From: Saksenaea vasiformis B4078
Taxonomy: Eukaryota; Mucoromycota; Mucoromycetes; Mucorales; Saksenaeaceae
DNA: 64,000 nucleotides
Reading direction: 5' to 3'
NCBI GenBank assembly: GCA_000697055.1
Contig: JNDT01001577.1
Coordinates: forward strand, 1 to 64,000
Positions within the stretch are counted from its first letter, which is position 1. Each line of letters opens with the position of its first letter. The notes below the pieces were generated by a model. That model was not told the origin of the DNA. It saw only the letters and a list, made by a program, of their open reading frames with translations, and did not search any database. Of the stretch, positions 4,627 through 62,287 are shown in pieces. The position numbers and the translations under genes are program-made.

Positions 4627-6326
4627 ATAATCCGTATTTAAAGAGACGCATGATCTTTGTTTATTCTTCGGCTCTGTTAATCTTGAACCTCCCCGGTAAG
4701 GATGTCGATTCATCGCACTTACAAGATTATCCGTGCTTCCTGTCTCTTGTTTAGGTTGCATGATCTCTGCCCCGGACCGTCGTGGTCGTGTAAAGCTTTG
4801 TTCACCGCTCAAGTGATACTCAACATCACTCATTTTCTGGTGATAAATCCCCAGACGCTGCATCGCTTCAGGTCCTTTGCAGATGGTTCACCAATCGGAC
4901 GCTCCTCGATGCCGACCTCTCCCTCCATCCGTTCCCACCGCTCCAAGCGGGGGGGGGCCATGTTATCATGGGATTACCCCTTCGGGGAGAGAGGTAAGTA
5001 AATTAACTTCAAAGTATCTTCCATCTACTGACCATGGATTACCTTTTATGCTGCCCGAATAAAATTTGGCGTCCACTGGGAGAGACCAAGTCCATGTAAG
5101 TTTATTAATCTTCTGACGAAAAATGTATGTATTAATGATCGCATGTTCAATTCTTCCTTAGCGCGAACTTGCTCTTCAGAGATGCAGGATTTACTTGGAG
5201 TAGCCTAAAAAATAATTCAATAGATAGTATTTGGCGATGACAAAGGGGGCGCTGTTAGCTCATGCACTTTTTTAATATCTGCCATGCTACAGTCCCTTTC
5301 AGGCAGGTTTGCAGAAATTTGTTTCATGCTTTTGCCACTTGTTAAAAAGCACTTGAGGAAACAGAAGGGATGGTAACAGTTGAGGAGGAAGCTATTGTAG
5401 TCATGTCGAAAAAGGGCATTCATTAACCTCGAAACTGCAAGTAGCAGGAGGACAGAGGACGCCTTCAGGGTGCGATAGACAAGTGTCCAGCTCAATAGCA
5501 TTTCAAGGCATCTTCGTTGCCTTTCTTCCATCTAAAATACATTATGGTATAGCAATATGAACACACTATCGATTATTTAGATTTTTTGAGACTAAGATGC
5601 ATTAAGGAACCTGTGCGGACACATCTCAGATATGTCATAAGCTTATCCGAGAAGTTTAGCACGAGCTTCGGATATGTCTTTGCCAATTTTGTGAGGGTCT
5701 ATATATACCCTTTATTGAATGCATCTTTACACTACCCTATGTAAATTTTGCGTCCATCAAGAGCCAGGTTTGCGCTAAATAAGGGATGAAATACGCGGTT
5801 ACCAGTACATAAATTGGCGATAAAATAATATTCCACTTACATCAACTTGGTCCCCAGATGGACGCAAAATTTATTTGAGCGGCATAAAAATTCATTCGCG
5901 GTTAGTAAATGGAAGATACTTTGATGCCACTTCACCTACTCCCGAAGGGCATAGCTGCCCAATGACAGCAGCCTGCCCCGCATCTGACGCGATGGGGGCG
6001 GCAGTGAAGATTATATTGACAGGACTGCCAGTTTGGGTGTTAACGCCGTGCAGAGGACTTGAAGCGATGCAACGTCTGGCGAGGTTCCGTCGTGGAAGTT
6101 GGAGCGAGGCTGCGTGTGACAACATTTACTTACCTGGTGGTGAAAATGGGCTACACCGCAGCCGAGACAGTTCGGGACAGAGGTCATGCAGGCCAAAGAA
6201 TAGACATAAAAATATGAGTAATTCTGCATGTATATAAATTGACATCCTTACCGGGGATGCCTTCTTGAAAAATAGAGCCAAAGAATTTAAAAAAATGGTT
6301 CATCCGTATCTTTAAATACGGATTAT
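4627..6326. mobile_element. Head-to-head pair of R1 repeats with inverted ends
   Basis: The 18-bp end ATAATCCGTATTTAAAGA at 4627-4644 recurs exactly, in reverse complement, at 6309-6326. The similarity continues inward on both arms through a 'TTCTT(C/T)GGCTCTRTT' block, a CCCCGGTAAGGATGTC block (~4691 and ~6242), the TTGCATCGCTTCA landmark (~4858 and ~6062), the CTTCGGG(G/A) block (~4980 and ~5942) and the TTTGCGTCCA block (~5066 and ~5865). Each arm is about 500-600 bp, and the spacer between them is unique. This looks like a foldback or long-inverted-repeat non-autonomous element, or two oppositely inserted copies. No transposase frame is present. Confidence 0.65.
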
Positions 6327-13097: not shown

Positions 13098-14847
13098 ATG
13101 CCACGAAGCATAACAAATTGCCAAATCTCCATTATATATTCTTTTACATTATCTGCAGTATTGAACATGAACTCTAACTCTTCAGTTTCGAAAGTGCCAC
13201 GTTCTGCACTCATTTACAAACAGAAATCGGCGCTTATCTGTCATCATGAAGAAAATCCACCTATGACTCAGTCTGAGTTTGCTGAGTGGGCAAAGATAGC
13301 TTTCAAGCTTAACAAGGCTCCAGTGCAATCCACAATCCAGAAGATCCTTAGCAATAAGCGCAAAATTGAGAACATATGCGATGTGGAACTTTCTTCGAAA
13401 TGTCAGTGCACTGGTGTACTTCCACAATTGGAAGCTGCTCTTGCTATGTGGTTGAAATCTATGGCGGAAAACAACACCCCTATCAATCGACATATGATAA
13501 GAGAACAGGCAAAGAATTTCGCGAAGAAGATGAATTTTGACAAAAAAATTGCATTTTCAAATGGATGGATTGCAAACTTTATGAAGAGAAATGGCCTGTC
13601 GACGTACCAGATACATGGGGAAACGGGATCTGTTGACACCAACAGTGACATGATGCGGGATAAGCTGCAAGAGATCTGATAGAAGATAAGCAAGTACCCT
13701 CTCTCCCATGTATACGACTTGGATGAGACAGGCCTTTTCTACGCAATGACGCCAGACACAACAATTGCTGATAAGCCTGTACCTGGCACAAAAAAGGACA
13801 AGAAGAGACTTACACTGGTATTTGTTGCTAACGCTGACGGTTCACACTATATCCCACCCTTTTTCATCGGGAAAGCCCAACAACCTTGCAGCTTCAAGAA
13901 TAAAAGTGGTACGTATCACTGATCGAGGAACCAACTCCAGGATACTAATGGTTATACATAGGTGAACAATACGGTTTCCAGTATTATTGGTGTAAGAAGG
14001 CTTAGATGACTTCTGATATCTTTGGAAAGATCTTGAAAAAATTGGACAGAATGATGCGAGCTAATGGAAAGGATATACTTCTCTTAATCGATAATGCGCC
14101 TTCCCACAAACATATCCCAGATCTGACGAATATTGAAGTTATGCTACCTCCGCCAAACACAACCTCGAAGATCCAGCCGCTGGATCAAGGGATTTTGAAA
14201 TGCTTCAAGACCTATTACAGGTAGTTATTGGTAGACTGGCCTTTTCTTATTGCTGACACTATTGTAGATCTTTCCAATATCGCGCTGTGTCTCTTTGATA
14301 CAATCTGGGCATGCGTCAAGATCTGTATCAAGTTGATCAGCTGAAGACCATGACGTGGTGCCTCTCTGTCTGGGCAAACGTTACTCCTCTAACGATCCTA
14401 ATTTGTTTCCGTCACAGTTCACTCTTCTCATGTGAAGATGGCGATGAAGTTCATACCACTCCTCGCATTGAAAAGGAAAAGGAAGTTATGGAGAATATTG
14501 CGGAGAGTATCCATAACGTTCATGGCCAAGAAGCAACAGTGACCAGTCTGCAACAAGAGGATGAAGATGTCGAACTGCACGCTATGATGAGTGAAGAGCA
14601 AATTATCGACGAAGTTCTGAACGAAGAAGAATCAGACGGGGATATCGAACCGCTGGAGGAGGACAAGCTTCTCCATTCTTTCGCAGAACAAAGGAAAGCG
14701 ATTGATATCTTACGAGAGTCCTTAGATATGTGTGAAGATATATACTACCAACTAGACCGGCTGCTTAAAAGGAAGCTTAGTATGCTTTTAGAACAGCAAC
14801 GAAAGCTCTCAAAACAGACAAACATAGCAGATTATTTCAAAAAATAA
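13098..14847 (+). pseudogene. Tigger/pogo DDE transposase, broken
   Basis: The N-terminal segment (13098-13676) has a CENP-B-like helix-turn-helix pair: the MTQSEFAEWAKIAFKLNKAP region, then a second domain with NGWIANFMKRNGLS. After two consecutive stops at 13677-13682 the same frame continues with DLDETGLFYAM, the first catalytic Asp block of DDE_1 transposases, to 13922. Another frame (14006-14224) carries KDILLLIDNAPSHK (second Asp block) and LPPNTTSKIQPLDQG-like sequence. The C-terminal acidic tail (14311-14847) is in a third frame and ends FKK. A TGG-to-TAG change precedes MTSDIF at 14003-14005. At least one double nonsense, one nonsense and two frameshifts are present, so no active enzyme is made. 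It sits inside the inverted repeats of its own element. Confidence 0.9.
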
Positions 14848-22518: not shown

Positions 22519-24670
22519 GGAACTGTTATTGAAGATGTGTTCTGCTTCAATAAAAGAAGAAATTAATGGTTCCACCAAATGAAACCCACTCCCCCTTTAT
22601 TTTTACTTTGTTTCCCTCTGTGCCGGTTTAAAACGAACAGAAAAAGCAGGAGCAATGAGCCAGATGACCCCATGTGATGGGTCGGAGAGCGAATGGCGCG
22701 TGGGATTCGGCTGGTAGCTCTCTTTCCACCAAGACACCCCACGATGGAAGATAAAAAAGGATCAGGTGCAAAAAATAACTTATTGTTTTCAGTCTTTTGA
22801 ACTGTAGTAAAGGGACTTAGTCGTGTAAAAAAAATGAGACGAAAGATGGTGTCTTCGGCAGCTTGAACCGTAATCTTCGTTATTCTTCACCTATGGCAAG
22901 TCCTGCTTAAGCGTAGTTTGGTAGAATCCTAAGCTGAGAAAACCTGATTAATGATGGTCTTTGATCAGCAGATTAGGCAATGTCAAATGAGCAACTGGAA
23001 AAATTCTTACCAGGTAACACGGTAGATTTCCACGAGGTACGACCATATTCACTAATGACAGTACCTGTGTAGCTACCACAGCTACTTAATACTGCATTTT
23101 GAATGAGCGTTTGCATCAAATAAATAGCATGTCACGTTGCAAGTTGAATAATTTTGCGTTGGGAAGTTATGAGCCTTTTGTGCGGGGAAATAGTTCTTTT
23201 TTTACTTTAGTCCAAGGAACACTGCGCGGCTGAATGAGGTAAGCGTTGCATTGAAGTATCCATTCCTTCATTGATAGTTCCTCAGCATCGTTTCAGAAGC
23301 AATAATGGGAGGTTCCACTCAAAATAAACCGTATTTGAAGACATGCATGGATTTCCTCTTCTCTCTTTTTTTTTTTCCTTCGGCTCTATTCATCTTAGAT
23401 CTCCGGTAAGGATGCCGATCCTCCATCACATACAGAAGATCATTCGTGTCTTTTTTGTCAGTCCTTTATCCTGCACGGCCTCCGTGCCGAACGATCTTGG
23501 CTATGGTATATCCTCTTCTTTACCACCAGATAAGCCAATCTCGTCGCCAATTCGTATATATCGTTGACCGCAGATTCAATTGCTTCTTTAGCATAAACTG
23601 GCCTCTGCGTGGACGCATAATTCATTCAGAGCGGCGTAAAAAATTGTTCAATAAACAAAGACATATGTCGCGTTTATCGAACACAACGCTAATACCTAAC
23701 AGTGTCAAAATGAGACCTATTGATTATGAAGCTATGAGAGATCTGGAAGCAAAATGGCGTGGCTGTGGACAGGGAGTGCCATATGCAGAAGCCAGTACGA
23801 CCACGTTTTTTCAACAATGCAATTTGCAGCTGGCCTCTAGATTGTATACGTGCACACTTTCTGTTGGTCCGCCTATCACGAAAATCAGAATGCCATGAAA
23901 AGTCTCTAAATTTTGAGAAGTCTATGAGTTGGCGCGAAAATGACACGTGCATTTGACCAGACTAAAAGTACCGATGAGATCTCAATGAGTATTTGGACCA
24001 AGGTAGCCCTACCTACAACGTTCTGTTTGGCAGTAATCTGGCTTATGAGGCACTTCAGTGCTTGCCAATTTGAGAAAGCAAGCTGCGTTTATTAACTTTC
24101 GGGTGTAAATATTGGCCTGATTCTAAGGCATAAATACTGTAAAAAATAGAAAACTCAGAATCTATATTGTTCAAAACTAGGTGAGCTGTGGGTACAATTC
24201 AAACGTTGCAGTACAGAGATATCAATGATTTTCTTCTATGGGATTATTGAGGCCACTCTCGACAGACTTGTTTTTTTTCAGTTATGATGATTTCATCATC
24301 TGTACAGATAACAGTAGTCTTCCTGAGCAGTAAACGGCTTGATGTAAATAGTTTAGCAATGAAAATTTTTCCAGGGAGAAATGTAGCACTTATGCGGAAA
24401 ATGCCCTTTATATTAGTGTCATTTTTAGATGCAGACACACCTAGGCCAGCGAACTACCATGTACAGCCATCTGACACATCGTTCGTTTGTGACATTTCCC
24501 AGATTATCTTCATTGCATCATATACGACATCCGTCAGTCAGCACCGCCTTAACTTAAAATTTATCATTAACGAAGTTTATATAGCTATTTCATATCCTTG
24601 TCATGCATTAAACGCCTAATTTCAATTACATGCAGTAAACTAATCATCTATCTGCTATCGGGAAGTAACA
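22519..24670. other. Intergenic with an R1 repeat relic
   Basis: DEF1 promoter side, then repeat-derived sequence (23325-23660, listed separately). Remaining open frames on either strand (for example plus 24284-24619) show no motif I can defend. Confidence 0.45.
23325..23660 (+). repeat. Dispersed repeat family R1, copy D
   Basis: Begins with ACCGTATTTGAAGACATG, then a TTCGGCTCT block, CTCCGGTAAGGATGCC (~23400), a CCTGCACGGCCTC...CCGAACGATCT block, a TACCACCAGATAAGC block, and finally GTGGACGCATAATTCATTCAGAGCGGCGTAAA. The order matches the arms at 4.6-6.3 kb, but the middle third is missing, so this is an internally deleted copy. Confidence 0.6.
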
Positions 24671-29279: not shown

Positions 29280-30560
29280 CTAAGTATTTTTTACTTTGCC
29301 ATTGGCTACATCCTCGTCTTTTGCCACATTTTCTTTCTTCTTGATGATTTGTTCGATTTCGAGGTTATAGCGCCTTGAGAACACTTCTATATAATAGCTG
29401 GCACCATTCCAAACGCTGGCAGCAAACATAGCAACGAGAAAGGCGGTGTGTAACCAAAAACTTTTGTACAGGAAATAGGTGGGTATGGTGGTGGCTAGGT
29501 TGTACACAAGCTGGAGCAACATAAACATGTAGATCTTGTATTTCGCTCCGAATATAAAAGACGCGTGTTGAATAAAACCTTTACGACCTTGCGAATCGTT
29601 GAGTAACCAGGAATATGATGTTAGTCGAAGACCTGATTCGATTTTTTCCCGTCGCTTCACAATGATAAAGACAAAGTAAAGCACCTGCCAGATCAGATAG
29701 GCGACTGTTGAAAAAACGAATGCATCCCTGAAGCTCATAGTGGGTATCTCAGCGAGAGCGGGGAAAAGAGTATTTCGTACTGTGGCGTCAGATGATTGCT
29801 GGAGTTGGGGCATCCATCGGATCGTGTAGGTCACCAGGGGTGGAAAAATATGAATGAACACAGAAGTGACCTTGTCCAATGAATGGAACACGAGCGAATT
29901 CCGCCATGTGACGATTGCCCAGGCAACTGGTCCGTTTGTAAGGCAGTACGTGGCGATGAACAAGGTCGCCGAAGCGGGAAAGAACCATAAGTATAACAGC
30001 GTCATAGCATTAACAAAGTAGCACAGATCGAATATAAAATAATGCCATCTGCGATATCGATAAATGACAAAACGCAATGTAAGTAAATAGATCGACTGGA
30101 TGCTGTAGTAGAGCGGGATCCACTCCGGCACGCGTGAGGCGAGTACAGGTGTTATGCATGCATTTCCTACGCCAACTACAAATGACAGTTTGTCCCGTGT
30201 ATGAATGGTCTTTTCATCGCGGTTGATTCGATCATTGATCTGCAGATAGCGATTCATAAGGCGGCTGTGGATCAATACGCGTTGCTCCTCGAGTTTCTTG
30301 GTCTGCGTTCGAATACGATCCTTCGTCTTCGTTGTCCATTCGGATGATTTTGCTCGTAGCTCCCTTTGTCTTTCGTGCAGCTGAAAGGTCACCTGGTCGA
30401 GAGCGGCCGAGAGCATATCGATCATATCGAAGTCGTTTTCAGAGACGAGGTCGGCAGCAGTCCAGCCCCATTCGTCTAACATGTCTACGTCGAAATCATC
30501 ATCCTCGGTGTCATTTACAGGTGATCCATTTAGCGAAGGAACCACTACCGGTTGTGCCAT
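29280..30560 (-). CDS. GPC1: Glycerophosphocholine acyltransferase 1
   Basis: Intron-free, 426 residues, close to the ~430 of yeast Gpc1. The N-terminus is acidic, followed by a coiled-coil helix (about residues 50-110), then at least eight hydrophobic segments. Signature blocks of the DUF2838/Gpc1 family are present: YFIFDLCYFVNAMTLLYLWF, CLTNGPVAWAIVTWRNSLVF and HSLDKVTSVFIHIFPPLVTY, the last two with the conserved Arg/His-Ser residues thought to be catalytic. The enzyme acylates glycerophosphocholine to lysophosphatidylcholine in the ER, recycling phosphatidylcholine backbones. The C-terminus is Lys/Glu-rich and cytosolic. Start is the first ATG (30560) with a purine-poor but acceptable context. 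Confidence 0.95.
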   Translation of the reverse strand: MAQPVVVPSLNGSPVNDTEDDDFDVDMLDEWGWTAADLVSENDFDMIDMLSAALDQVTFQLHERQRELRAKSSEWTTKTKDRIRTQTKKLEEQRVLIHSRLMNRYLQINDRINRDEKTIHTRDKLSFVVGVGNACITPVLASRVPEWIPLYYSIQSIYLLTLRFVIYRYRRWHYFIFDLCYFVNAMTLLYLWFFPASATLFIATYCLTNGPVAWAIVTWRNSLVFHSLDKVTSVFIHIFPPLVTYTIRWMPQLQQSSDATVRNTLFPALAEIPTMSFRDAFVFSTVAYLIWQVLYFVFIIVKRREKIESGLRLTSYSWLLNDSQGRKGFIQHASFIFGAKYKIYMFMLLQLVYNLATTIPTYFLYKSFWLHTAFLVAMFAASVWNGASYYIEVFSRRYNLEIEQIIKKKENVAKDEDVANGKVKNT

Positions 30561-31192
30561 GGGTGAGTAATTAATCAGGAAGAGAAACTAAGAAACGAGA
30601 AACATGTGCTTTTACTTTACTTATCCCAGCATACAATTACACGTGATAATTTTTATCTTAAGGTCGGAGCACTGGGACTTTCAGAACACGGAACTGGAAG
30701 TCCTCCGCGTTATCGTTCCGCAGGATTAAAATTCTCTCACAAAGTTATCGCTGCTAGTAACAAGTGATTGTGAATTTGATGTATGTCCATAGTATACTTA
30801 ATTGAATGACTTTATAAATTCAAATATGTATTTCTTTTTTTATCAGGCACATAGATAGAGTTTTTCCATCGCACCATTCGGGTTGACCCACAAGCTAAAC
30901 GCGTTGTCGCTTAGGGCTGGAAGCTTTGAGCCTGCGACAAATGCATTTACAATGATGAATAAAGTATTACGCTGGTCGAATAAGCTTTGCGCCAATATGG
31001 GGATCAATCTGATGTAACCAGGTTATCACTTTGTGGCCAGTGCATGAACTGGTGACTGCATATTCAATTTCCTCAGCACAAACGTGGGTCTTCTTGAATA
31101 CATAATTTATAGAACGTAGCATAAAAATACATTCAATAAGCATTATGAAAACTTGTCAACGATAAGAAAGCATTCGCTATCATTAACAGAAG
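30561..31192. other. Intergenic
   Basis: GPC1 promoter on the right side of its start and the 3' flank of the large gene ending at 31193. Nothing else recognised. Confidence 0.5.
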
Positions 31193-51040: not shown

Positions 51041-51666
51041 AGTAAGACCTTTCCCGAGCTTTTTTATAATTCTGGTTGCAAAGTGGATGAACGCTCGAGC
51101 AAAAGACGTAGGGTACTTGCAGCTGATCTTCAATGGTGTGTAGACAACAAAGCTACCCTGTCTCATATTCCCTTTGCTACCAAGTTTGGTCTGCTGGACA
51201 AACAATATGCCAATAATCGCTATTTAGCAATAATCAGCTTGCATCACCTGAAAGAAGATTCAAGGCGATTGAAGTCTGATCTGGCTACCTTAAAAAAAAG
51301 CGAAGAATACAATCAATTTTGGCTAACGAGGTCCCGCCGAGCAACCCAATTGAACGCCCATTCAAGTTGTGCTGAGTTTGTCCAAAATGTTGGCAGTGAT
51401 GAAACTTCTGCTCTCTTTTCCAGCGTGCCACCCGTCTGTGAACCACCTGCCGACATTAGTAAGTGCGAATGGAAGTTGAAGAAAAAAAAGAGATTGATAA
51501 ACTCTCAGTTCTCTAAGACATAGGCTCAGCAATCACTTCTTTATCAATCATTCCTTCACCAACCACACCTTGCCCTTCTGCAACGCCTCTGAAGAATCAA
51601 GAGGATAGTGAAAACGGAAGAGACAAGAGAAGTCAGCGAGACTTAGATAACCCTTTTATTGAATAA
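50990..51666 (+). CDS. Lineage-specific protein, multi-copy family
   Basis: Two exons, 50990-51458 and 51524-51666. The coding-like core begins near 51045 with KTFPELFYNSGCKVDERSSK, RRRVLAADLQWCVDNKATL, NNRYLAIISLHHLKED and a coiled stretch to TRSRRATQLN. After a GT-AG intron the C-terminus is Ser/Pro/Thr-rich and ends RDKRSQRDLDNPFIE. The same C-terminal residues and ~225 bp of 3' flank recur at 58824-59078. The family is not known to me. The first ~18 codons derive from R1 repeat sequence, so the true N-terminus may be missing and this may be a gene fragment carried by or inserted into a repeat. Confidence 0.5.
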
Positions 51667-51851
51667 AAAAACGTTCCTCCTTTTATAACAAAATCATCTG
51701 TAGAACCAGATAGGTCGGACTATATTCCATGATTGCACAGATGTCTATATATCAAAGATATAGCCGTCATCTGTGCTGAAACCTTCTTAGTGCAGTGTTC
51801 ATGGAGGACAGATCGAGAGTAGATCTTAGAAAACTCAGTGAAAGGCATTGT
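51602..51851. repeat. Repeat family R2, copy 1
   Basis: Same orientation and ~90 percent identity by eye with 58824-59078. Landmarks: GACAAGAGAAGTCAGCG, CGTTCCTCCTTTTATAACAA, GACTATATTCCATGATTGCA, CAGTGTTCATGGAGGACAGA and GTGAAAGGCATTGTA. Both copies include the last codons of the gene entry at 50990-51666 plus its 3' flank. Confidence 0.85.
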
Positions 51852-52134
51852 ATAAAGGAATCCGGAATAAGAGTTTATCCGCAAGTGATTCAAAGTCCAC
51901 AGTCTGTGCTCTAGATAATTCCGGAGCAGAAACAGGATATCTTTATAGCAATGTCTCTGACAGTGAATAAAGGATGTTGGAATACAACAGCGTCCATTCG
52001 TGACGGATAATGGTAAGTCATTATCAACAGATACCAGTACCAATAAATCAGCAACTATTGCATCCACAGACAACAATAGTTCTGTCATTATGACAGCGGC
52101 TGTGCAAAGCACGGTTTATACATTCTGACGGTTT

Positions 52135-52380
52135 GTGCGGGGTGGGGCCCCCATGGAATCATGGGAATACCCTTCGGGGGTTAAGTAAAATGACATCCAA
52201 GTATTATTCCATTTACTAACCCTGAACAAATTTTATGCTGTCTATATGAATTTTGCGTCCATCGAGGGGCCGCGTTGATGTAAGTAGTGTATGAATTTGT
52301 TGCCAACTTATGTATTAACGAACGCATATTTGATTCTTTTTCTTAGCGTAAAAGTTCTGTTCGATGAACAGAGTAGTATA
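52135..52380 (+). repeat. R1 repeat, copy E, right part
   Basis: CATGGAATCATGGGAATACC, then CCTTCGGGGGTTAAGTAAA, CCATTTACTAACC, ATGAATTTTGCGTCCATCGA and TGTATTAACGAACGCAT in the same order as 4960-5180. Orientation is the same as the left part at 50905. Confidence 0.65.
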
Positions 52381-54846: not shown

Positions 54847-55780
54847 TTTATCACACTATCCATTTGTATAATATTTACCCAGAAAGCATCCACTACTTCA
54901 ATCCTATTCAACTACTGCACCTTCCTTTTCTCTAATAGTATCATGATAAGTCTTCTCGATGTAAAAAAATGATTACCTCTCTTCCGAACACGGAATATAT
55001 GCTTTGTGAAGTACCAATTGGTTTTTGTCATTTATTGGGAACGGAAAGTTACTTTCGTTTTTAAGCAGATCTCGGGACAGGATGACTATAGTGGGCAAAT
55101 TCCGACTTTTTTTGTGGTGCTGCTAAAGATTGGAACGTCATGATCGCGCAAAAGGAGCGAATTACAAAGACCGTTAGTCATTTGCCAACACATATCGGAC
55201 AGAAAAACATTTCTAGCGGACAGATGGCGGTCTATAGGTGTATTTATTATCGGCTCAGATGGACACGATATCGTTCAATTCCAAGAACTCAATGAACACC
55301 AAGACGGACGAGCTCCGTGACCATGTCTGTAGCCCTAATTTTTGTTTTGGTTACCAAAGCCATGATGCTTTCTGCCGACCACTTACCTGTCGAACAAGCG
55401 ACGAGTTGGCAGTGCCTTACTGCCGAGCCGCCCTTGACAGCGCTTCTGGACGTGACGCCAGCTGACAACCGGATCGTATATATTCGACGAATATGTTATG
55501 GATGTTTCGGCCAGCATTAATATCTCTGTTCCAGAACTAAATGGGATGGTCAGATTTGAAAACGTTAAAGCTAATCGATGATCCTTACGAGAAATGTTCG
55601 AACTTGGTGTCTATCGTACTTCGCGCTGGGGGAACAGCCCGATAGGATAGACAACGTTTCTATAATTGTTGCGAGCTATTCTTGTGTCAAAGAAGATTGT
55701 ACGTATGCAGCATTACACCATACCAGGTAGACGTCTATCAGGGCATTCACTGCTGATATGTAAAATCTGCGTGTTGCCAT
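54847..55780. other. Intergenic / 3' flank of the Fanzor gene
   Basis: No gene supported. If the Fanzor at 55.8 kb belongs to a mobile element, its 3' end and guide-RNA region should lie here; I could not identify an end by eye. Confidence 0.4.
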
Positions 55781-57462
55781 TTAAACAATGTTGGCGTTTG
55801 TGCGTATGATGGCACCTCCTGATATTTTTTTTTTTTTTACTAAAGATACATTTGTACAAGTCAGTCTTTCATCGTGCTCAGTTGCTTGGCAAAACGTACC
55901 AATGATTACATATCTGCATGTTATAATCGCGGAAATCGACAGTGTCATGATGACATACACTGCATACTTTACTGGTTTTGTACTCGTCGATACATATGAC
56001 AGGACATCGTTGAGCTAGAACCTTGCGAAATGTCTGCAAGAACAGCCGGTATCAATAGAATTCTCCGGGAAAGATGGATTAAACACCCTCACCTTTACTG
56101 GAAGGGGAGCATACGTCTTGTAACCCCCAGTTTGCCGATCAGCATTACCGTATGCTGTAAGGACTCGACGCTGGTCACGTCTGCTGTTTTGGCTTCAACG
56201 GTGCTGGCGATGTTTGAGTTGCCGCGACCTTTTGTTTGTTTTCTGTATGTTCTGGATAGGAGGCTAAGGCATTGATGCGCAATTAATCAGCGAACAGCAA
56301 ACAAACAAGTACTTACCAGCGTTGTGTTGGGGTAGAACCTCCAACCTGGTCTGCAATAACATCCATGGTCAAACTTCTGGAAGACGCTTGTAAAGCACGC
56401 CTCTCTTTGTGTCTGTAGTGATGGTTGTACTCATCAATCCTGGTAAAAGTTTATTCAATGTGATTACATATGGACGAGAATATTTGCAGTTACCTGCGTT
56501 GTTCCGCAAATTGTGCCACAAGAAATTGTCGGAATACTTCAACAGATGAAGCTGTGCTTGGGTGTTCCGACAAACGGTCGTACACCTCTTGCATGTTGGC
56601 GATTGAACGATTTTTCCGTTCTACCTGAAGACTCCAGTTGAATTTCGAGCTGGCTCTAAAAATTATAGTCATTTCGTTGATTACACATAGAGTTCTGATA
56701 GCTTACTGATAATAATCGTTTGTAACACTGAACGTGTGGTTTTCTCTCGCCTCTTGATCATGAAGATCATCTGCAGTATCCACAGCGGTTACAAGAGAAC
56801 GGATCCCTAAGATACATACATAACTTCTGTTGAGTTCATTATAGAGAAAAAAAAAACCTACCGGGATCTATTCCCACTATGCGGGTTATTTCAGGGTTCA
56901 AGTCGCGTGCAGTTGTTAGGCCCGTAGGTTCCTTCTTTAAATGATAGATGCCACGCTATAAATTAGATAAATCCCTATTCCGAGGAAAGAACTGGAAATC
57001 TCTCTGGGAGGATGGATATGATGCTGGAATACAATCTTTCCGTTAACGTGCTTCACGGTAAGTAAAGACCGGGACTGACCTAGGTTGAGTTTTCGAGATT
57101 TGAATCTTACCGCCACCATAACACCGTCTGTCTCAAAACCGTAGTCAAACTCTACCTCCCGGTAACGCATCATTGTTCATATCAGCCATGAACAAGTGTA
57201 AGGACATTATTTCCATGCAGTTGAATATAACCAAATCTTGCGCCCAGCAGCGGCGAGGCAGAACCTTATCGAGGCATAAAATAGCCTCCCAAACTTGTTC
57301 ACGATATGTAATGTCCTTGAGCGCATTGCTGAAGCTCTTAAGATCTTGCAATGGACCCTAGTAGAAGGTCGTCAATTTTTCTTTACTGATCCTATGCTTG
57401 TCTCTACAGACACTTACTTCTAAATGGTCCGACAGATTGCGGGGAATGTCTTGGAGCACCCG
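55781..57462 (-). CDS. Fanzor-type RNA-guided nuclease (TnpB relative)
   Basis: Multi-exon minus-strand gene. Recognisable order: helical N-terminal region (VLQDIPRNLSDHLE, then NALKDITYREQVWEAILCLD, ~57462-57170); YREVEFDYGFETDGVMVAVRF (the 'TDGV' strand before RuvC-I); RIVGIDPG-IRSLVTAVD (RuvC-I Asp, intron after GIDP-G, ~56880-56780); a helical bridge (MQEVYDRLSEHPSTASSVEV, 56670-56490); RRVLTAYGNADRQTGGYKTY (RuvC-II area, ~56160); then CPVICIDEYKTSKVCSVCHH with a C-x2-C zinc half-site (~55990-55930) and ICNH-C for the second. At least six introns fit GT-AG. RuvC-III is not clear: a run of 14 A/T at 55825-55838 shifts frame, and only an ...RTNAN... remnant is seen in the neighbouring frame. 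There is also a frame change near 57165. The gene may therefore be recently inactivated. Confidence 0.75.
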
Positions 57463-57656
57463 CTAAAGTACTGTGTAATTCACAGGAAGATATCCTACGT
57501 AAGGTACACTCCCTGAAAGAAAATGTAGATACGATTTGGAAAATTCCAAAAATCATGATAAGGCATCATGAACTTTGTTTGTCGTTTTTCCCTCTTTTTC
57601 ATTTATAAGCTTTCCTTATGACGCTTACATAAGACGTTTCCAATACTGCAAGAACA

Positions 57657-58680
57657 CCTAGAACTGAACTGTCAGAACAGCAGCGGTCAACGATCTATGG
57701 AATGAGGGAAGCGGGATTGTCCTTAGGCGGAATTGCAAAGTCCCTGAAGCTGTCGAAATCAACTGTCCAGCACATTATAGAAAACATAAAGAAAACGGGA
57801 ACTACGACATCCAAGCCAAGACCTAGGAGGCCTAAGAAGATAACAGAACGTGAGCAGTGCGTACTTGACCGCGACGTCAGACGCCATCCGCGTTTACCCC
57901 TGAAGGTACAACACGCCAGTTTCTCCGATTCGACTGTCAACGTCTCATACCCGACATTCAGGAAAGTGGTTCGCGATCTTGGTTTTCTTTCGTGTCGACC
58001 AGTTCGTAGACCCAGGTTAACGGAAAGACATAAGGGAACAGGTTGCAATGGGGAAAAGAGTATGTCGATTGGACTGTGGAACAGTGGCAAAAGGTCATCT
58101 AGTCAGAGGAGTCCAGATTTCGTGTCGAAAGCAACGATGGCAGAGAGCAAGTCCTACGAAAGAAAGGAGAAGCTCTTATGCCACAGCATATCAAAGAGAC
58201 CACGAAGTATGGCCGAGGTTCTGTTATGGTGTGGGGCTGCTTTACAGCTAGCGGAGTCGGCCCTATCGTTCCTGTGGAAGGCAGGATGAATGGAAAGGCG
58301 TATGTGGCCGTCTTGAGGAAGAAGCTGCTTCCCTTTTTGAGGCAGAACAGTCAGAGCGACTATATCTTTCAAGAAGATGGGGCGTTGCCCCATACTTCTG
58401 CATTTACGACTCGCTGGAAACAGAGAAACAACGTCTCCGGTTTTCCAAACGGCGCTCAATCTCGTCCCAGAGGTGCTCAATCGGGTTGAGATCGGGACTT
58501 TGTGCAAGCCAGTATGGAAAATCGGAGACATGTTATCAAGAAGTCAGAGGAGTTGGAGGCCATTCTGGTAGAATAATGGGCCTCTATACCCGAAAGTGTG
58601 TGTGTCAGAAGTTAGTTGCTTCTATGCCTGAAAGATGTAAGGCAGTAATAGAAGCCCGTGGCGGTCACACAAGATACTAG
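57657..58680 (+). pseudogene. Tc1/mariner transposase, broken, internal inversion
   Basis: The frame at 57657 begins PRTELSEQQRSTIYGMREAG (ACA stands where the ATG is expected), then a paired-like HTH (LSLGGIAKSLKLSKSTVQHI) and RRPRLTERHK. After a frameshift near 58036, a second frame has the GRGSVMVWGCFTASGVGPI block with the second catalytic Asp context and FQEDGALPHTSAFTTRWKQR. The segment 58441-58521 reads backwards: on the minus strand it encodes QSPDLNPIEHLWDEIERRL, the third catalytic-acid block. Downstream the plus frame resumes with KSEELEAILVE, a stop, and ASMPERCKAVIEARGGHTRY to 58680. A TGG-to-TAG at ~58110 and a GT duplication near 58603 add damage. TIRs not found by eye. Confidence 0.9.
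58441..58521 (-). other. 81-bp inverted segment inside the Tc1 gene
   Basis: Bounded by TTTTCCA (58441-58447) and TGGAAAA (58515-58521), a 7-bp inverted repeat. Reversing just this interval restores one continuous reading frame from GFP-YWLAQ through DEIERRLENRRHVIKK. Seen directly in the sequence. Confidence 0.9.
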
Positions 58681-58823
58681 ATGGCTATACAATTTCAAAT
58701 AAATATTGCTTATATCTATACTGCTCTGCTCCTCTTTTTATGAGTCTTCTTAGTTATAAAGTCATGAGATCTAGTTCATGTCGAAAGGTGTGCATCATCA
58801 ATCTGACTTCGGTGAAGGATCAG

Positions 58824-59078
58824 GAGGATGAATGAGAAAAAACAAGAGACAAGAGAAGTCAGCGCGATTTAGATAATCCTTTATTGAATAAAAAACGTTC
58901 CTCCTTTTATAACAAAATCATTCATAGAATCGGATAGATCGGACTATATTCCATGATTGCACAGATGACTATATGTCTAAGATATAGCCGTCACCTGTGT
59001 TGGACCTTTCTTAATGCAGTGTTCATGGAGGACAGATCGAGAGCGGATCGTAGAAAACTCGGTGAAAGGCATTGTACA
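58824..59078. repeat. Repeat family R2, copy 2
   Basis: Second copy of the 51602-51851 repeat, same orientation, including degenerate codons for DKRSQRDLDNP. It is truncated just upstream, where the Tc1 relic ends. Confidence 0.85.
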
Positions 59079-59092
59079 GTAGCATGGTATCA

Positions 59093-59290
59093 TCAGTATA
59101 GTGTCTCCTCCAATAACCTTATTCCTTTTTCCACACTTGCTAATTCTTCTTCATGCCACTTTTCTGTTGCTCTTAATTCCACAATCGGTCGATGTTCAAG
59201 TTCAACAAATGATTGAGGTCCAGGAGTTTGGGATTCATGTTCAACGGAAGGTTGAGCTGTTTGTTCAGCAGGAGTTTGAGGTTGTAATGT
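59093..59290 (-). CDS. Short coding-like fragment, unknown
   Basis: A 66-codon frame from ATG to TGA on the minus strand: a Pro/Gln/Thr/Glu-rich part, then a helical end (ELRATEKWHEEELASVEKGI). No family recognised. It ends a few bases before R2 copy 2. It could be the last exon of a gene starting upstream, or a fragment. Confidence 0.3.
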   Translation of the reverse strand, partial: TLQPQTPAEQTAQPSVEHESQTPGPQSFVELEHRPIVELRATEKWHEEELASVEKGIRLLEETLY

Positions 59291-59390
59291 CATTGATGTT
59301 CTGAACATTGAGAGGATAACTTGTACCAATTTGATCTTTGGCGAGTGGGAGTATGGACCAGCCTTCACCGTTTAGTTTGGTTGTTTGGCT

Positions 59391-60718
59391 TTACTTTCGC
59401 TGTGAGAAGCGTATCATTGACGGAAGAATCCGTCTTGTGTCTTCATCCTCCATCTCGGCTGTGATATCAATGCTGTTGAAATTTTCAACATAAGCTACAT
59501 AGAATTCGCTAAGAAAGAAAAGTGTACATAAGCATTGACGGATACAAGTAGCATCAGTCACATACATGTAGAATTCCTCAAGCTCAGTGACAGCGTTGTC
59601 GTCCAATGCTGTCCATGCACCACGATCAAAGTCACGTTGGTTCAAGATTCCTTGCGTGCATCGAGAAGCCAAGCCTAGCAATGTCGGATGGGTTAAATGA
59701 TTAGTACTTAAAGCAATCCTTGCGTAGTGTATACCTAAACTTTTCACATTTTAGGCCTAATTTTGTGAATGACGTTCAAAGAGATCCAGGAGAAAGGCCT
59801 TAAAACTTCTCCGCATGTAGCATTCAAGGTTGGTTGTAACATGCACTACGGGAAAACATCTTGGAAAAATCTTGGATTTCGTTGGTTTTGTAAGACTTTT
59901 GCAAGATTTTGCTGATTTTGTTAAGATTTCTCCAAGATTATGTGATAGTTAAGATTTTGCCCCATAGTGACATGTAGGTACGTATCTGCAGAACAGAGAA
60001 AAGGATATTTAATAACAATAAAACGTCTGATCCTCTATTTTTATGCACTCACTCGAAATCATCTTCCTTGCGAACGAAGGTGCCAAGTCTCTTACGAGGG
60101 CACTTGACGTTGGAGGAACATAATGTTCTAGGAACTGATAAGCATATTTTAACTCGCAAAACTCATATGTACCTCCCTGCGTCTCTCTACTGAATCTACA
60201 CGGTTCGTAGTAGCGTTCAAAGTTCTGCACTGGTCAAAGCACCAACGACAGTTCGACTGTGGGAAAAGCGATCAGTTCATACTTTTTGCACGTTTGATCA
60301 CAGAAATATACAGGATTCATGCGAATGTTTGCGGAGGGTCCCGTCGTAGGATCAATTTAAATGCAGCGGTGTAGAATTGTTCCTCTGTAAGAGGTGGAAA
60401 CTGCTCAAATCCTCCTTCGAGCCACCGACGAATACGCAGATTGATCAAAAGTGTGGCACATTTTCGAGATGCAGCGTACTCTTCGGCTGCTGTGCGGAAG
60501 CCGCCCTGTAAGGAAGGCAGTCAGTAACAAAAGAAAAAGAACTTTACAGTACGGATCGAAGAATACGATACCCTTAACGGCTTGTAATCGTCATTAAGGA
60601 AGTTGCAAAGCTTTGACAACCGTACGGATGTGTAAACTCTGCCTGGTAAATGCGATAACAGAGTGTTCAGATAACCATACCGCCTTCTACGGCGTGGAGG
60701 CTCCTCTTCATTCTCCAT
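59391..60718 (-). CDS. Lineage-specific protein, unknown (multi-exon)
   Basis: ATG at 60718 (MENEEEPPRRRRRYGYLNTL...SVRLSKLCNFLNDDYKPL). Then a GT-AG intron leads to GGFRTAAEEYAASRKCATLL and EQFPPLTEEQFYTAAFKLIL (~60500-60310), next NFERYYEPCRFSRETQGGTY...LKYAYQFLEHYVPP (~60220-60060), and finally LASRCTQGILNQRDFDRGAW, an intron (~59569-59513) and VAYVENFNSIDITAEMEDED with a stop at 59391. I do not recognise a domain. The donor after DPPQTF near 60310 is not GT, and a stretch at about 59790-59990 holds repetitive CAAAATCTT-like sequence, so the model is incomplete and the gene may be damaged. Confidence 0.4.
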
Positions 60719-60860
60719 GTTAGGTGATTTTACAACGATAAACGGTGACAAATAAAAGTAGAAGATAAAAGGAAAAAGGTAAAGGACAAAAGATGAATGG
60801 TAAAAATGAAAAGCAAAAGATGAAGACAACAAACTCGCGCAAACAGCCTATCTGGGCCGT

Positions 60861-61160
60861 TCACTGGATGGACCAATCGGAAAGCAATGAAATGATAAAG
60901 TGATATATTGTATTTAAACAGTCTAACTGATCAGTCCGTCTCGATATGACTTCATACCAAAAAGCCAGGCGTAGGAGCCGTACAATTTTTTCAGCCTGCA
61001 CATCATCAATCACGGCTTTAAATAAAACAAGATATGACGGACCGGACTTGACATGGTTCCTACGAAATCGGTGAAGGCTACATTTCTCGTTGAGATAACC
61101 TTTCCTTTTGCTGATACGGAAAACCTGTGTGTAATGTGACTCAAAGTTCCTCATCACCAT
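60861..61160 (-). CDS. Related fragment of the same unknown family
   Basis: A 100-codon frame with ATG at 61160: MRNFESHYTQVFRISKRKGY, then a helical Leu/Ile/Val-rich part to a TAA/TGA at 60861. The start resembles NFERYYEPCRFSRE of the neighbouring gene, in the same orientation, so it may be a tandem paralogue or its broken remnant. Confidence 0.35.
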   Translation of the reverse strand: MVMRNFESHYTQVFRISKRKGYLNEKCSLHRFRRNHVKSGPSYLVLFKAVIDDVQAEKIVRLLRLAFWYEVISRRTDQLDCLNTIYHFIISLLSDWSIQ

Positions 61161-62287
61161 GCACCAACTGCCAGTTTGTGACCGCCATGACAGACAGATA
61201 TGAAAATGTCAAACTTGAAAAAAAGAGAAAAAGAGAGTCCACCCATTCAATTGCATGAATGTACGGCTGTGTAACTTGCGGATCGATTTTGGTGGATCCT
61301 TAATGAGTATATACATTCTATAGCTTGATTCTACCAGAAAATTACTACATCGAGTTGTATTAGGTAAAAATGAACGTCAGATCAGCTGTCACTGTCCATA
61401 AAACTTGCACTATTAGCATCCTGGACAGTACGTCTTTTCACAGTAATGCAGTGGCAAATGCTTCCTAAAATACAATTTATATCTTGGAAGTAGGATGAGA
61501 AGTTATGCGCGTAGAGCGTGCGGGAATCTGCATCGAAAGCTGCTCATACATTGTTGTTCCGTGGAAGCAGTTGATGCCTAGAACAACTTGGAGGGGTAAT
61601 AATGTTACCCGAAGAACTAAGACTAATAGAGAGAAACAGATGTATTAAGATTCATCAAATCGAATTGATATCAGAGGGTTGTAACTGTATTGTAACAGTT
61701 TTATGAATAGATGCAGAACCGTATTAATTCGAACATCGCGACTTATCCTTGCTTTCGGAACAGCTTGCTTCACGGCAAAGAGCGCAGTGTCTCAACCGTT
61801 TCCTGCTCTGAATTGGTTGTGGTAGTCTTCGGAGGTGAGGTACAAGAGGTTGATCCTGATGGTATTGTAGGTGATGCAACTAACTGGGGCAGAATGGGAG
61901 AAAGTGCTGTGGCAGGCGTTATAAGAGGTTGATGGGATTTTCCATTGGTCTCTTATCATGTTTCTAATTTCCTCGAAATATGGTATGAACAAGGATCCAG
62001 ATTGAAGAACAGCATCGGCGTCAAAGCTGTTTACATTTAGATCGTTGTGGATATGTCACACATAAAAGTCCATTGTGCCTTTATGTCTTTTTGTCTTCTT
62101 TGTTTTTTTTTGGTATTATTTATTGGAGATTTCAAAAGAGAGTGTGTTAATGGCCAATCCGCTATGTCTGTGTTAATAGTTAGTCTGCTCCAATTTTTTG
62201 GAAATTCTGCACTTTAATGGCGAATCAGGTTGCCACCCGACTTAACGTGATAAAAAAGCAACTTCATTGGATATTAACACCACAGAG
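61161..62287. other. Intergenic; one Ser/Pro/Thr-rich frame
   Basis: On the minus strand about 61925-61760 encodes a Pro/Ser/Thr-rich peptide (ASPTIPSGSTSCTSPPKTTT) without start support. Otherwise no gene seen. Confidence 0.35.

Follow-up and report, generated by a model that had tools for sequence, protein, structure and literature searches.

A dead Fanzor1 copy and its intact relatives in a multicopy DNA transposon of Saksenaea vasiformis

Elements with Fanzor1 as their only content are already known from Mucoromycetes, as described by Bao & Jurka (2013; PMC3627910). In their description, ROr-4, PBl-3 and MCi-4, from Rhizopus, Phycomyces and Mucor, are assigned to MuDr on the basis of TIRs and duplications of 9 bp. 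The family that we describe here resembles these elements in its Mucoromycete host, its Fanzor1 cargo, the lack of a recognised transposase gene, and its short target duplications. It differs from them in that a duplication of 8 bp is favoured and its ends are unlike those of the MULE family that we read. (The comparison is with the published descriptions.)

The element of the Spodoptera frugiperda ascovirus (SfAV) is, as reported, also non-autonomous and carries just Fanzor1. Its reRNA reaches ~15 nt past the duplication and is predicted to form three stems (PMC10711439), and our family has a candidate for such a three-stem reRNA at its right end. The TTAN duplications of the ascovirus element (PMC3627910) are a proposed part of the scaffold, whereas the duplication varies between copies of our family. 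Another similar case is SPu-1/SpuFz1 of Spizellomyces punctatus, which is described as a multicopy Fanzor1 element with several intact copies and a guide from the 3' flank (PMC3627910, PMC10432273). In our family, the guide's location would be by analogy: the Fanzors that were tested in the latter study take their guide from the omega RNA's 3' flank. As described, SPu-1 has a single open reading frame, 33-bp TIRs and putative TA duplications, in contrast to the 19 exons and 8-bp duplications that we report here. Finally, the RuvC core of the Fanzor1 from Guillardia theta (PDB 9cer) matches our family's profile, but this protein is distant and only the C-terminal half aligns.

Our analysis began with a window of 64,000 nucleotides from S. 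vasiformis B4078 (contig JNDT01001577.1). One copy of the element lies at 55312..61954 on the minus strand. Its right end is at ~55312: across an alignment of 26 copies, similarity collapses at ~55310. The left limit is where similarity to the closest copy, L002, stops, and may not be the true left end. (L002 matches the window at 55312-57506, 59287-59843, and 59972-61954.) On the same strand, the gene runs from an ATG at 60718 (60716-60718) to a TAA at 55417 (55417-55419), with exons 1-7 at 59327..60718 and exons 8-19 at 55417..57494, as projected from the gene model.

That model, which came from codon-substitution scoring and replaced a first model made from open frames alone, has 19 exons and 18 introns and encodes 795 amino acids in intact relatives. 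Among the aligned copies, splice sites are conserved and changes fall at third positions. Splicing is thus read from conservation: among the 19 sequences that we scored, the model's splice dinucleotides are 89-100% conserved. The intron between exons 9 and 10 is less sure, as it has an alternative reading. An earlier note on this DNA had described an intron-rich Fanzor with at least six GT-AG introns. Both statements fit the model: exons 8 to 17 enclose 9 introns, and in the window copy 8 of these still have their GT and AG. The motifs that the note named on the minus strand are all where it put them: ETDGV (57120-57134), VGIDPG of RuvC-I (56860..56877), which has the catalytic Asp by homology, the AYGNAD strand (56138..56155; IAYGD in relatives), and DEYKTSKVCSVC (55953..55988), which has the candidate catalytic Glu, the TS pair and the first Cys pair of the zinc ribbon.

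We searched the genome (38,675,218 bases in 666 contigs) with positions 55700-57560 of the window and found at least 41 DNA matches, counting partial ones and the window's own; this is a lower bound because scoring covered the best 40 among 56 candidates. The other matches are 66-89% identical to the window. At 6 of 29 loci (L003, L004, L007, L013, L019, and L021), the whole frame is free of frameshifts, stops and lost splice dinucleotides. These uninterrupted frames, the 41 matches and the conserved splice dinucleotides are beyond chance. In L013, a His replaces the Asp of RuvC-III; the other five intact copies keep all three acidic residues. L003 shares just 76-79% DNA identity with the family A copies over ~3.5 kb, yet it has the full 19-exon frame, so it is a strong check of the gene model. 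The genome also has further Fanzor sequences: we obtained at least 164 matches when we searched with exons 15-16 and scored 150 out of 200 candidates, which is not a count of copies since a whole copy gives two matches. Some of these have the exon 16 region within long open frames (~170-190 amino acids, as in C525 and C537), and perhaps represent less intron-rich Fanzor families.

Judged by its sequence, the protein is a Fanzor1. Profile searches bear out the earlier note's assignment to the Fanzor family. First, the protein from the intact copy L003 matches the Pfam zinc ribbon (PF07282) with 26.4 bits, just above the cut-off of 26.3 (E = 7.7e-6). (The window's exon alone scores 25.4 bits, under the cut-off.) Second, a family profile built from 13 sequences (L003 and 12 relatives) matches the Guillardia theta Fanzor1 in the PDB (9cer; E = 1.7e-5), with GIDPG, IAYGD, DEYKTS, and WNRDVNA in register. 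At E ≤ 10, the profile matches just one further PDB sequence, that of a designed protein (E = 0.045). With L003 alone as the query, phmmer found no PDB chain at E ≤ 1, and a profile search of a protein database with A2 found no match. Third, L003 has the motif that Bao & Jurka (2013; PMC3627910) give as common to Fanzor and TnpB, D-X(125,275)-[TS]-[TS]-X-X-[C4 zinc finger]-X(5,50)-RD: the residues are D459, T666-S667 (206 residues between), KVCSRC...CPQC, and RD at 760-761. The 12 relatives came from a protein search with residues 380-795, and include proteins from Mucor, Lichtheimia, Rhizopus, an aphelid, and oomycetes. The best of them, from Mucor circinelloides, is 36% identical over 99% of that region. 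(An AlphaFold model of the Mucor relative P0001 was too poor for a fold search, with a pLDDT of 47.2.) The choice of Fanzor1 rather than Fanzor2 is based on the profile match to GtFz1 and on a carrier that is not IS607.

The carrier is a eukaryotic DNA transposon: it is multicopy, has a sharp right end, and is flanked by target duplications. The left end has matches at 35 places and the right end at 40. Elements of family A have the ends GGCTCGCC...GGAGCC, which include an inverted repeat that is short and imperfect (TGTCTGTrG), and the five that we measured are 4,513-4,955 bp long. Among the 12 loci that we examined for duplications, six have a perfect 8-bp one, such as CCCATATT, CCGCTTTC or CACAAAAT. 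(C623 and C643a were judged by eye.) At C478, 7 of 8 bases agree in the strict frame, or all 8 if the element finishes on the right with ...ATAGCCG, like L010 and L014. Four loci have no duplication, and at the remaining one the left end was not located.

Our first reading was a duplication of 9 bp. A G is found beside the left end in 22 of 25 left flanks, and a G at the matching place on the right in only 4 of 23 right flanks. Therefore, the G more likely belongs to the element, and the duplication is more likely 8 bp; after comparing the right flanks, we gave up the 9-bp reading.

The size of the duplication bears on the type of carrier. We recognised no transposase domain in the element. 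In L008, the ~1.3 kb to the left of the gene has no open reading frame of over 87 amino acids, and Pfam searches with seven reading frames gave a best E value of 0.01, below the cut-off; a caveat is that a transposase split by introns could escape this check. Elsewhere in the genome we found 48 MULE and 50 hAT domain matches, and, by eye, no match of either type is within 10 kb of a listed element end. Similarly, a 22-base pattern from the left end has 29 matches (the reversed control has 0), and by eye none is within 10 kb of a MULE match. A search for the KDZ family was uninformative, as its own controls were silent too. hAT elements make 8-bp target duplications. A carrier of the MuDR/MULE type would fit the published elements (PMC3627910), which, as described, share our family's host group and Fanzor1-only content. 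The 48 MULE domain matches and the ninth base, which agrees in four of the six perfect duplications (by eye), also fit such a carrier. But the asymmetry of the G counts against it, as do element ends unlike GGGAATTGCTACGGACA, the ends of the one MULE family that we read. Overall, we consider a MULE carrier possible, though somewhat unlikely.

Several observations concern how these elements are put together. A miniature element of ~390 bp, with the ends GGGAATTGCTACGGACA and the 9-bp duplication CTTGCTGAA, lies inside a Fanzor element (L008 joined with L037, ~888-1289). GGGAATTGCTACGGACA also starts the MULEs at L080:1750 and L081:1722. The left part of the window copy is shared with L002 but is unlike that of most family A copies, and therefore left parts seem to have been exchanged between copies. 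In L005 and L008, the left noncoding part and the introns give different distances (0.034 vs. 0.227), which suggests exchange between copies. In L063 (C383) and L052 (C396), the Fanzor element is present for its first ~120 bp and then gives way to unrelated sequence. The left end in L063 runs into an intron-rich gene from a divergent multigene family with 27 matches. We considered this gene as the transposase and rejected it, as it belongs to a divergent family and has no Pfam match.

The left flanks contain a motif at a fixed distance from the element. Aligned on the element's end, they read T(-29)T n A A n C T C(-21) C G(-19) ... C(-9). CCG at -21 is present in 16 of 25 flanks; at 260 other offsets, the count averages 0.18 and never exceeds 2. 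With a leave-one-out matrix, 19 of the 25 sites score among the best 1% within their own 1-kb flank, considering both strands. The 25 flanks are otherwise unrelated (by blastn). They are from 25 of 31 loci (L041-L070 and L007), as L050, L058, and L067-L070 lack an exact left end; L052, L053, and L063 were kept although their left ends reach other sequence or the contig end. In the right flanks of 23 loci (a set that omits the window copy and L002, and in which L014 is anchored at the wrong site), we saw only the motif's first C. The motif is thus one-sided, which means that insertion occurs in a fixed orientation relative to it.

We also tried to read a TAM from the left flanks and rejected this, as no bases directly 5' of the duplication are conserved and the motif is ~10 bp too far upstream. 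Near the left end of the element are three TTAATCTTCGGA repeats, 41 bp apart, which are loosely like the target motif. Our guess would be that one protein binds both these repeats and the motif. A more speculative idea, which we would give only a small chance of being right, is that insertion is orientation-locked to TTnAAnCTCCG (CCG at -21..-19, C at -9) and that a complex of Fanzor and RNA helps to choose or keep these sites. If true, this would be a mobile unit that lacks a transposase of its own and relies for its spread on an RNA-guided nuclease that acts in cis, with the motif and the guide a fixed distance apart.

The right end contains a candidate scaffold for the guide RNA (reRNA or omega RNA) at 55311..55475 on the minus strand, which overlaps the end of exon 19. 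This is within 54.9-55.8 kb, where the earlier note had suggested looking for a guide RNA. From 24 distinct tails, RNAalifold predicts a series of hairpins over the final ~165 nt. Eight further relatives (seven from family B and one from family C) were read as well. We counted pairs in 17 of 31 tails, as the omitted tails are mostly near-identical. Three hairpins stand out, all on the minus strand: SL1 (55427..55441) has 98.0% of cells paired and an exchange of AU to GC in 6 of the 17 sequences, SL2 (55408..55424) has 99.0% paired and a first pair that is GU in 11, AU in 3 and GC in 2, and SL3 (55389..55402) has 98.5% paired and an exchange of AU to GC in 2. The first and last helices are weak (88% and 75% paired). 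In the same 17 sequences, the whole named structure is 92.0% paired, versus 25-42% if it is slid.

The support for the scaffold from covariation is modest. The covariation score and the number of doubly changed cells are above all 500 shuffles. However, a count of 3 pairs that changed on both sides is reached in 125 of 500 shuffles, and there are 12 further pair types as compared to 13.1 in the shuffles. The terminal stem region (55312..55335, minus strand) is at the right end itself, which can form the stem GGGCT/AGCC, or GGCCC/GGGCC in family C; these tails were compared by eye. Rfam has no match in positions 55000-61500 of the window. By analogy with tested Fanzors, we would place the guide in the adjoining flank, immediately below 55312.

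We then asked how the protein evolves among the copies, using 153 pairs from the 18 copies that align over the whole gene. In the youngest bin (dS < 0.05, 3 pairs), the mean dN/dS is 0.80. In later bins it is 0.35, 0.24, 0.19, 0.18, 0.16, and 0.16 (the last being dS 0.6-1, with 18 pairs), and for all 66 pairs with dS > 0.4 it is 0.16. If dN is compared to intron distance instead, then the ratios are higher, ~0.35 for L003/L004 and 0.23 for L004/L007, but still below 1. (In most pairs, introns diverge less than fourfold sites do, as in 0.317 vs. 0.539 for L003/L004; this involves family A and L003, and perhaps reflects composition. An initial impression that the introns are oddly conserved became weaker with fourfold sites.) The fall of dN/dS with age fits the decay of single copies combined with a protein that is kept in spreading lineages: we would expect a single copy to decay after insertion, and lineages that jump on to keep the protein. 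Because we recognised no other gene in the element, we infer that the constraint is on Fanzor itself, with some coupling in cis.

These results bear on whether the Fanzor gene could be a passive passenger that adds nothing, in an element moved by a trans-acting transposase that likes its ends. Many copies are broken, and L063 and L052 share the left end and then continue into other sequence, as a passenger would allow. Against this, the mean dN/dS drops with age from 0.80 to 0.16, and L003, a copy divergent from family A, keeps its full frame. We think that a passive Fanzor is improbable. Alternatively, the gene might be a host gene that was domesticated from Fanzor, which would explain the long-term constraint on the protein and the many introns. 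This is very improbable, as the family is dispersed and multicopy, with element ends, target duplications, unrelated flanks, and young copies that decay.

The window copy itself is a dead relic, a pseudogene of Fanzor1, because it has a 1,780-bp insertion, frameshifts, lost splice sites and a lost CPxC pair. The insertion is in intron 7 (57507..59286, with edges good to a few bases). It is absent from L002, in which the same base ends one match at window position 57506 and the other at 59287. (A second insertion relative to L002, of 128 bp, is the gap between matched segments at 59844..59971.) Frameshifts were called in exons 2, 3, 5, 10, 14, and 18, and the donor of exon 9 and the acceptors of exons 5, 6, and 10 are lost; the calls in exons 2-6 are less sure, as they are from a pairwise alignment to a divergent subfamily. 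In exon 18 (55589..55675, minus strand), the frame is shifted and the second zinc-ribbon pair, CPQC in relatives, is gone.

The earlier note had seen a near-complete nuclease in 55781-57462, with its RuvC-III motif hidden by a homopolymer that could decide its activity. This interval contains exons 9-16 and parts of exons 8 and 17, out of 19; exons 1-7 are past the 1,780-bp insertion and exons 18-19 are past the interval's low end. RuvC-III (WNRDINAGRNI) is intact at 55501..55533 on the minus strand, outside the interval and 3' of the second zinc-ribbon exon. The run of 14 A's (55825..55838, minus strand) is not over RuvC-III; instead, it is where exon 17 starts and separates the two halves of the zinc ribbon. 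Exon 17 has no frameshift flag, and it is other lesions that break the gene. So a working, near-complete Fanzor in the window, with an activity set by the homopolymer's length, is hardly credible, even with RuvC-I, RuvC-III, and DEYKTSK present, given the lesions listed above.

The insertion in intron 7 includes fragments of a Tc1/mariner-like transposase (57633..58489, plus strand) in two overlapping frames, with Pfam matches to HTH_SB (E = 9.2e-9) and HTH_Tnp_Tc3_2 (E = 2.1e-4); DDE_3 reaches only E = 0.15. We rejected a Tc1/mariner element as the carrier of the Fanzor gene: its absence from L002 marks it as a later insertion. The window has other repeats as well. A pair of direct repeats (51590-51852 and 58813-59076) is 87% identical, and its second copy is inside the intron 7 insertion. 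A dispersed repeat from the right flank of L006 matches the window at 4993-5229, 23538-23657, and 52171-52352, with 70-78% identity. An open reading frame at 13098-13679 has a DNA-binding domain of the Tc5/CENP-B type (HTH_Tnp_Tc5, E = 4.9e-16), and the adjoining one at 14299-14847 has no Pfam match. A neighbouring single-exon gene (29283-30587) is 88% identical to proteins from Apophysomyces sp. BC1034 and A. ossiformis, and at most 71% identical to proteins from other Mucorales, which puts the host among the Mucorales, close to Apophysomyces.

Overall, we think it probable that the window holds a dead copy of a Fanzor1 gene, the sole gene recognised in a multicopy DNA transposon; that in its relatives, the Fanzor protein and an RNA from the right end retain the element; and that the transposase acts in trans. 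The Fanzor protein from an intact copy would bind an RNA that is transcribed from the end of the protein's own gene and on over the element's right end. By analogy with known systems, this transcript would be processed to the scaffold and a guide derived from the flank. If the flank just outside is the guide, then each copy would target its own insertion site. Fanzor could then cut the site where the element is missing, such as after excision, and the cut would favour repair from the chromosome that still carries the element, so that copies are not lost. Movement itself would be by the transposase supplied in trans. Once inserted, a copy may decay freely, as the window copy presumably did.

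To our knowledge, based on the open-licence literature, the orientation-locked target motif at a fixed distance and the age-graded constraint are new. With many copies, both intact and dead, and with Fanzor as the sole recognised gene, the family is a set of natural replicates. It bears on the role of Fanzor in eukaryotic transposons, as age-graded decay argues that the protein is needed for spread. This role is testable with existing sequence and with yeast assays, and the target motif may help to identify the transposase.
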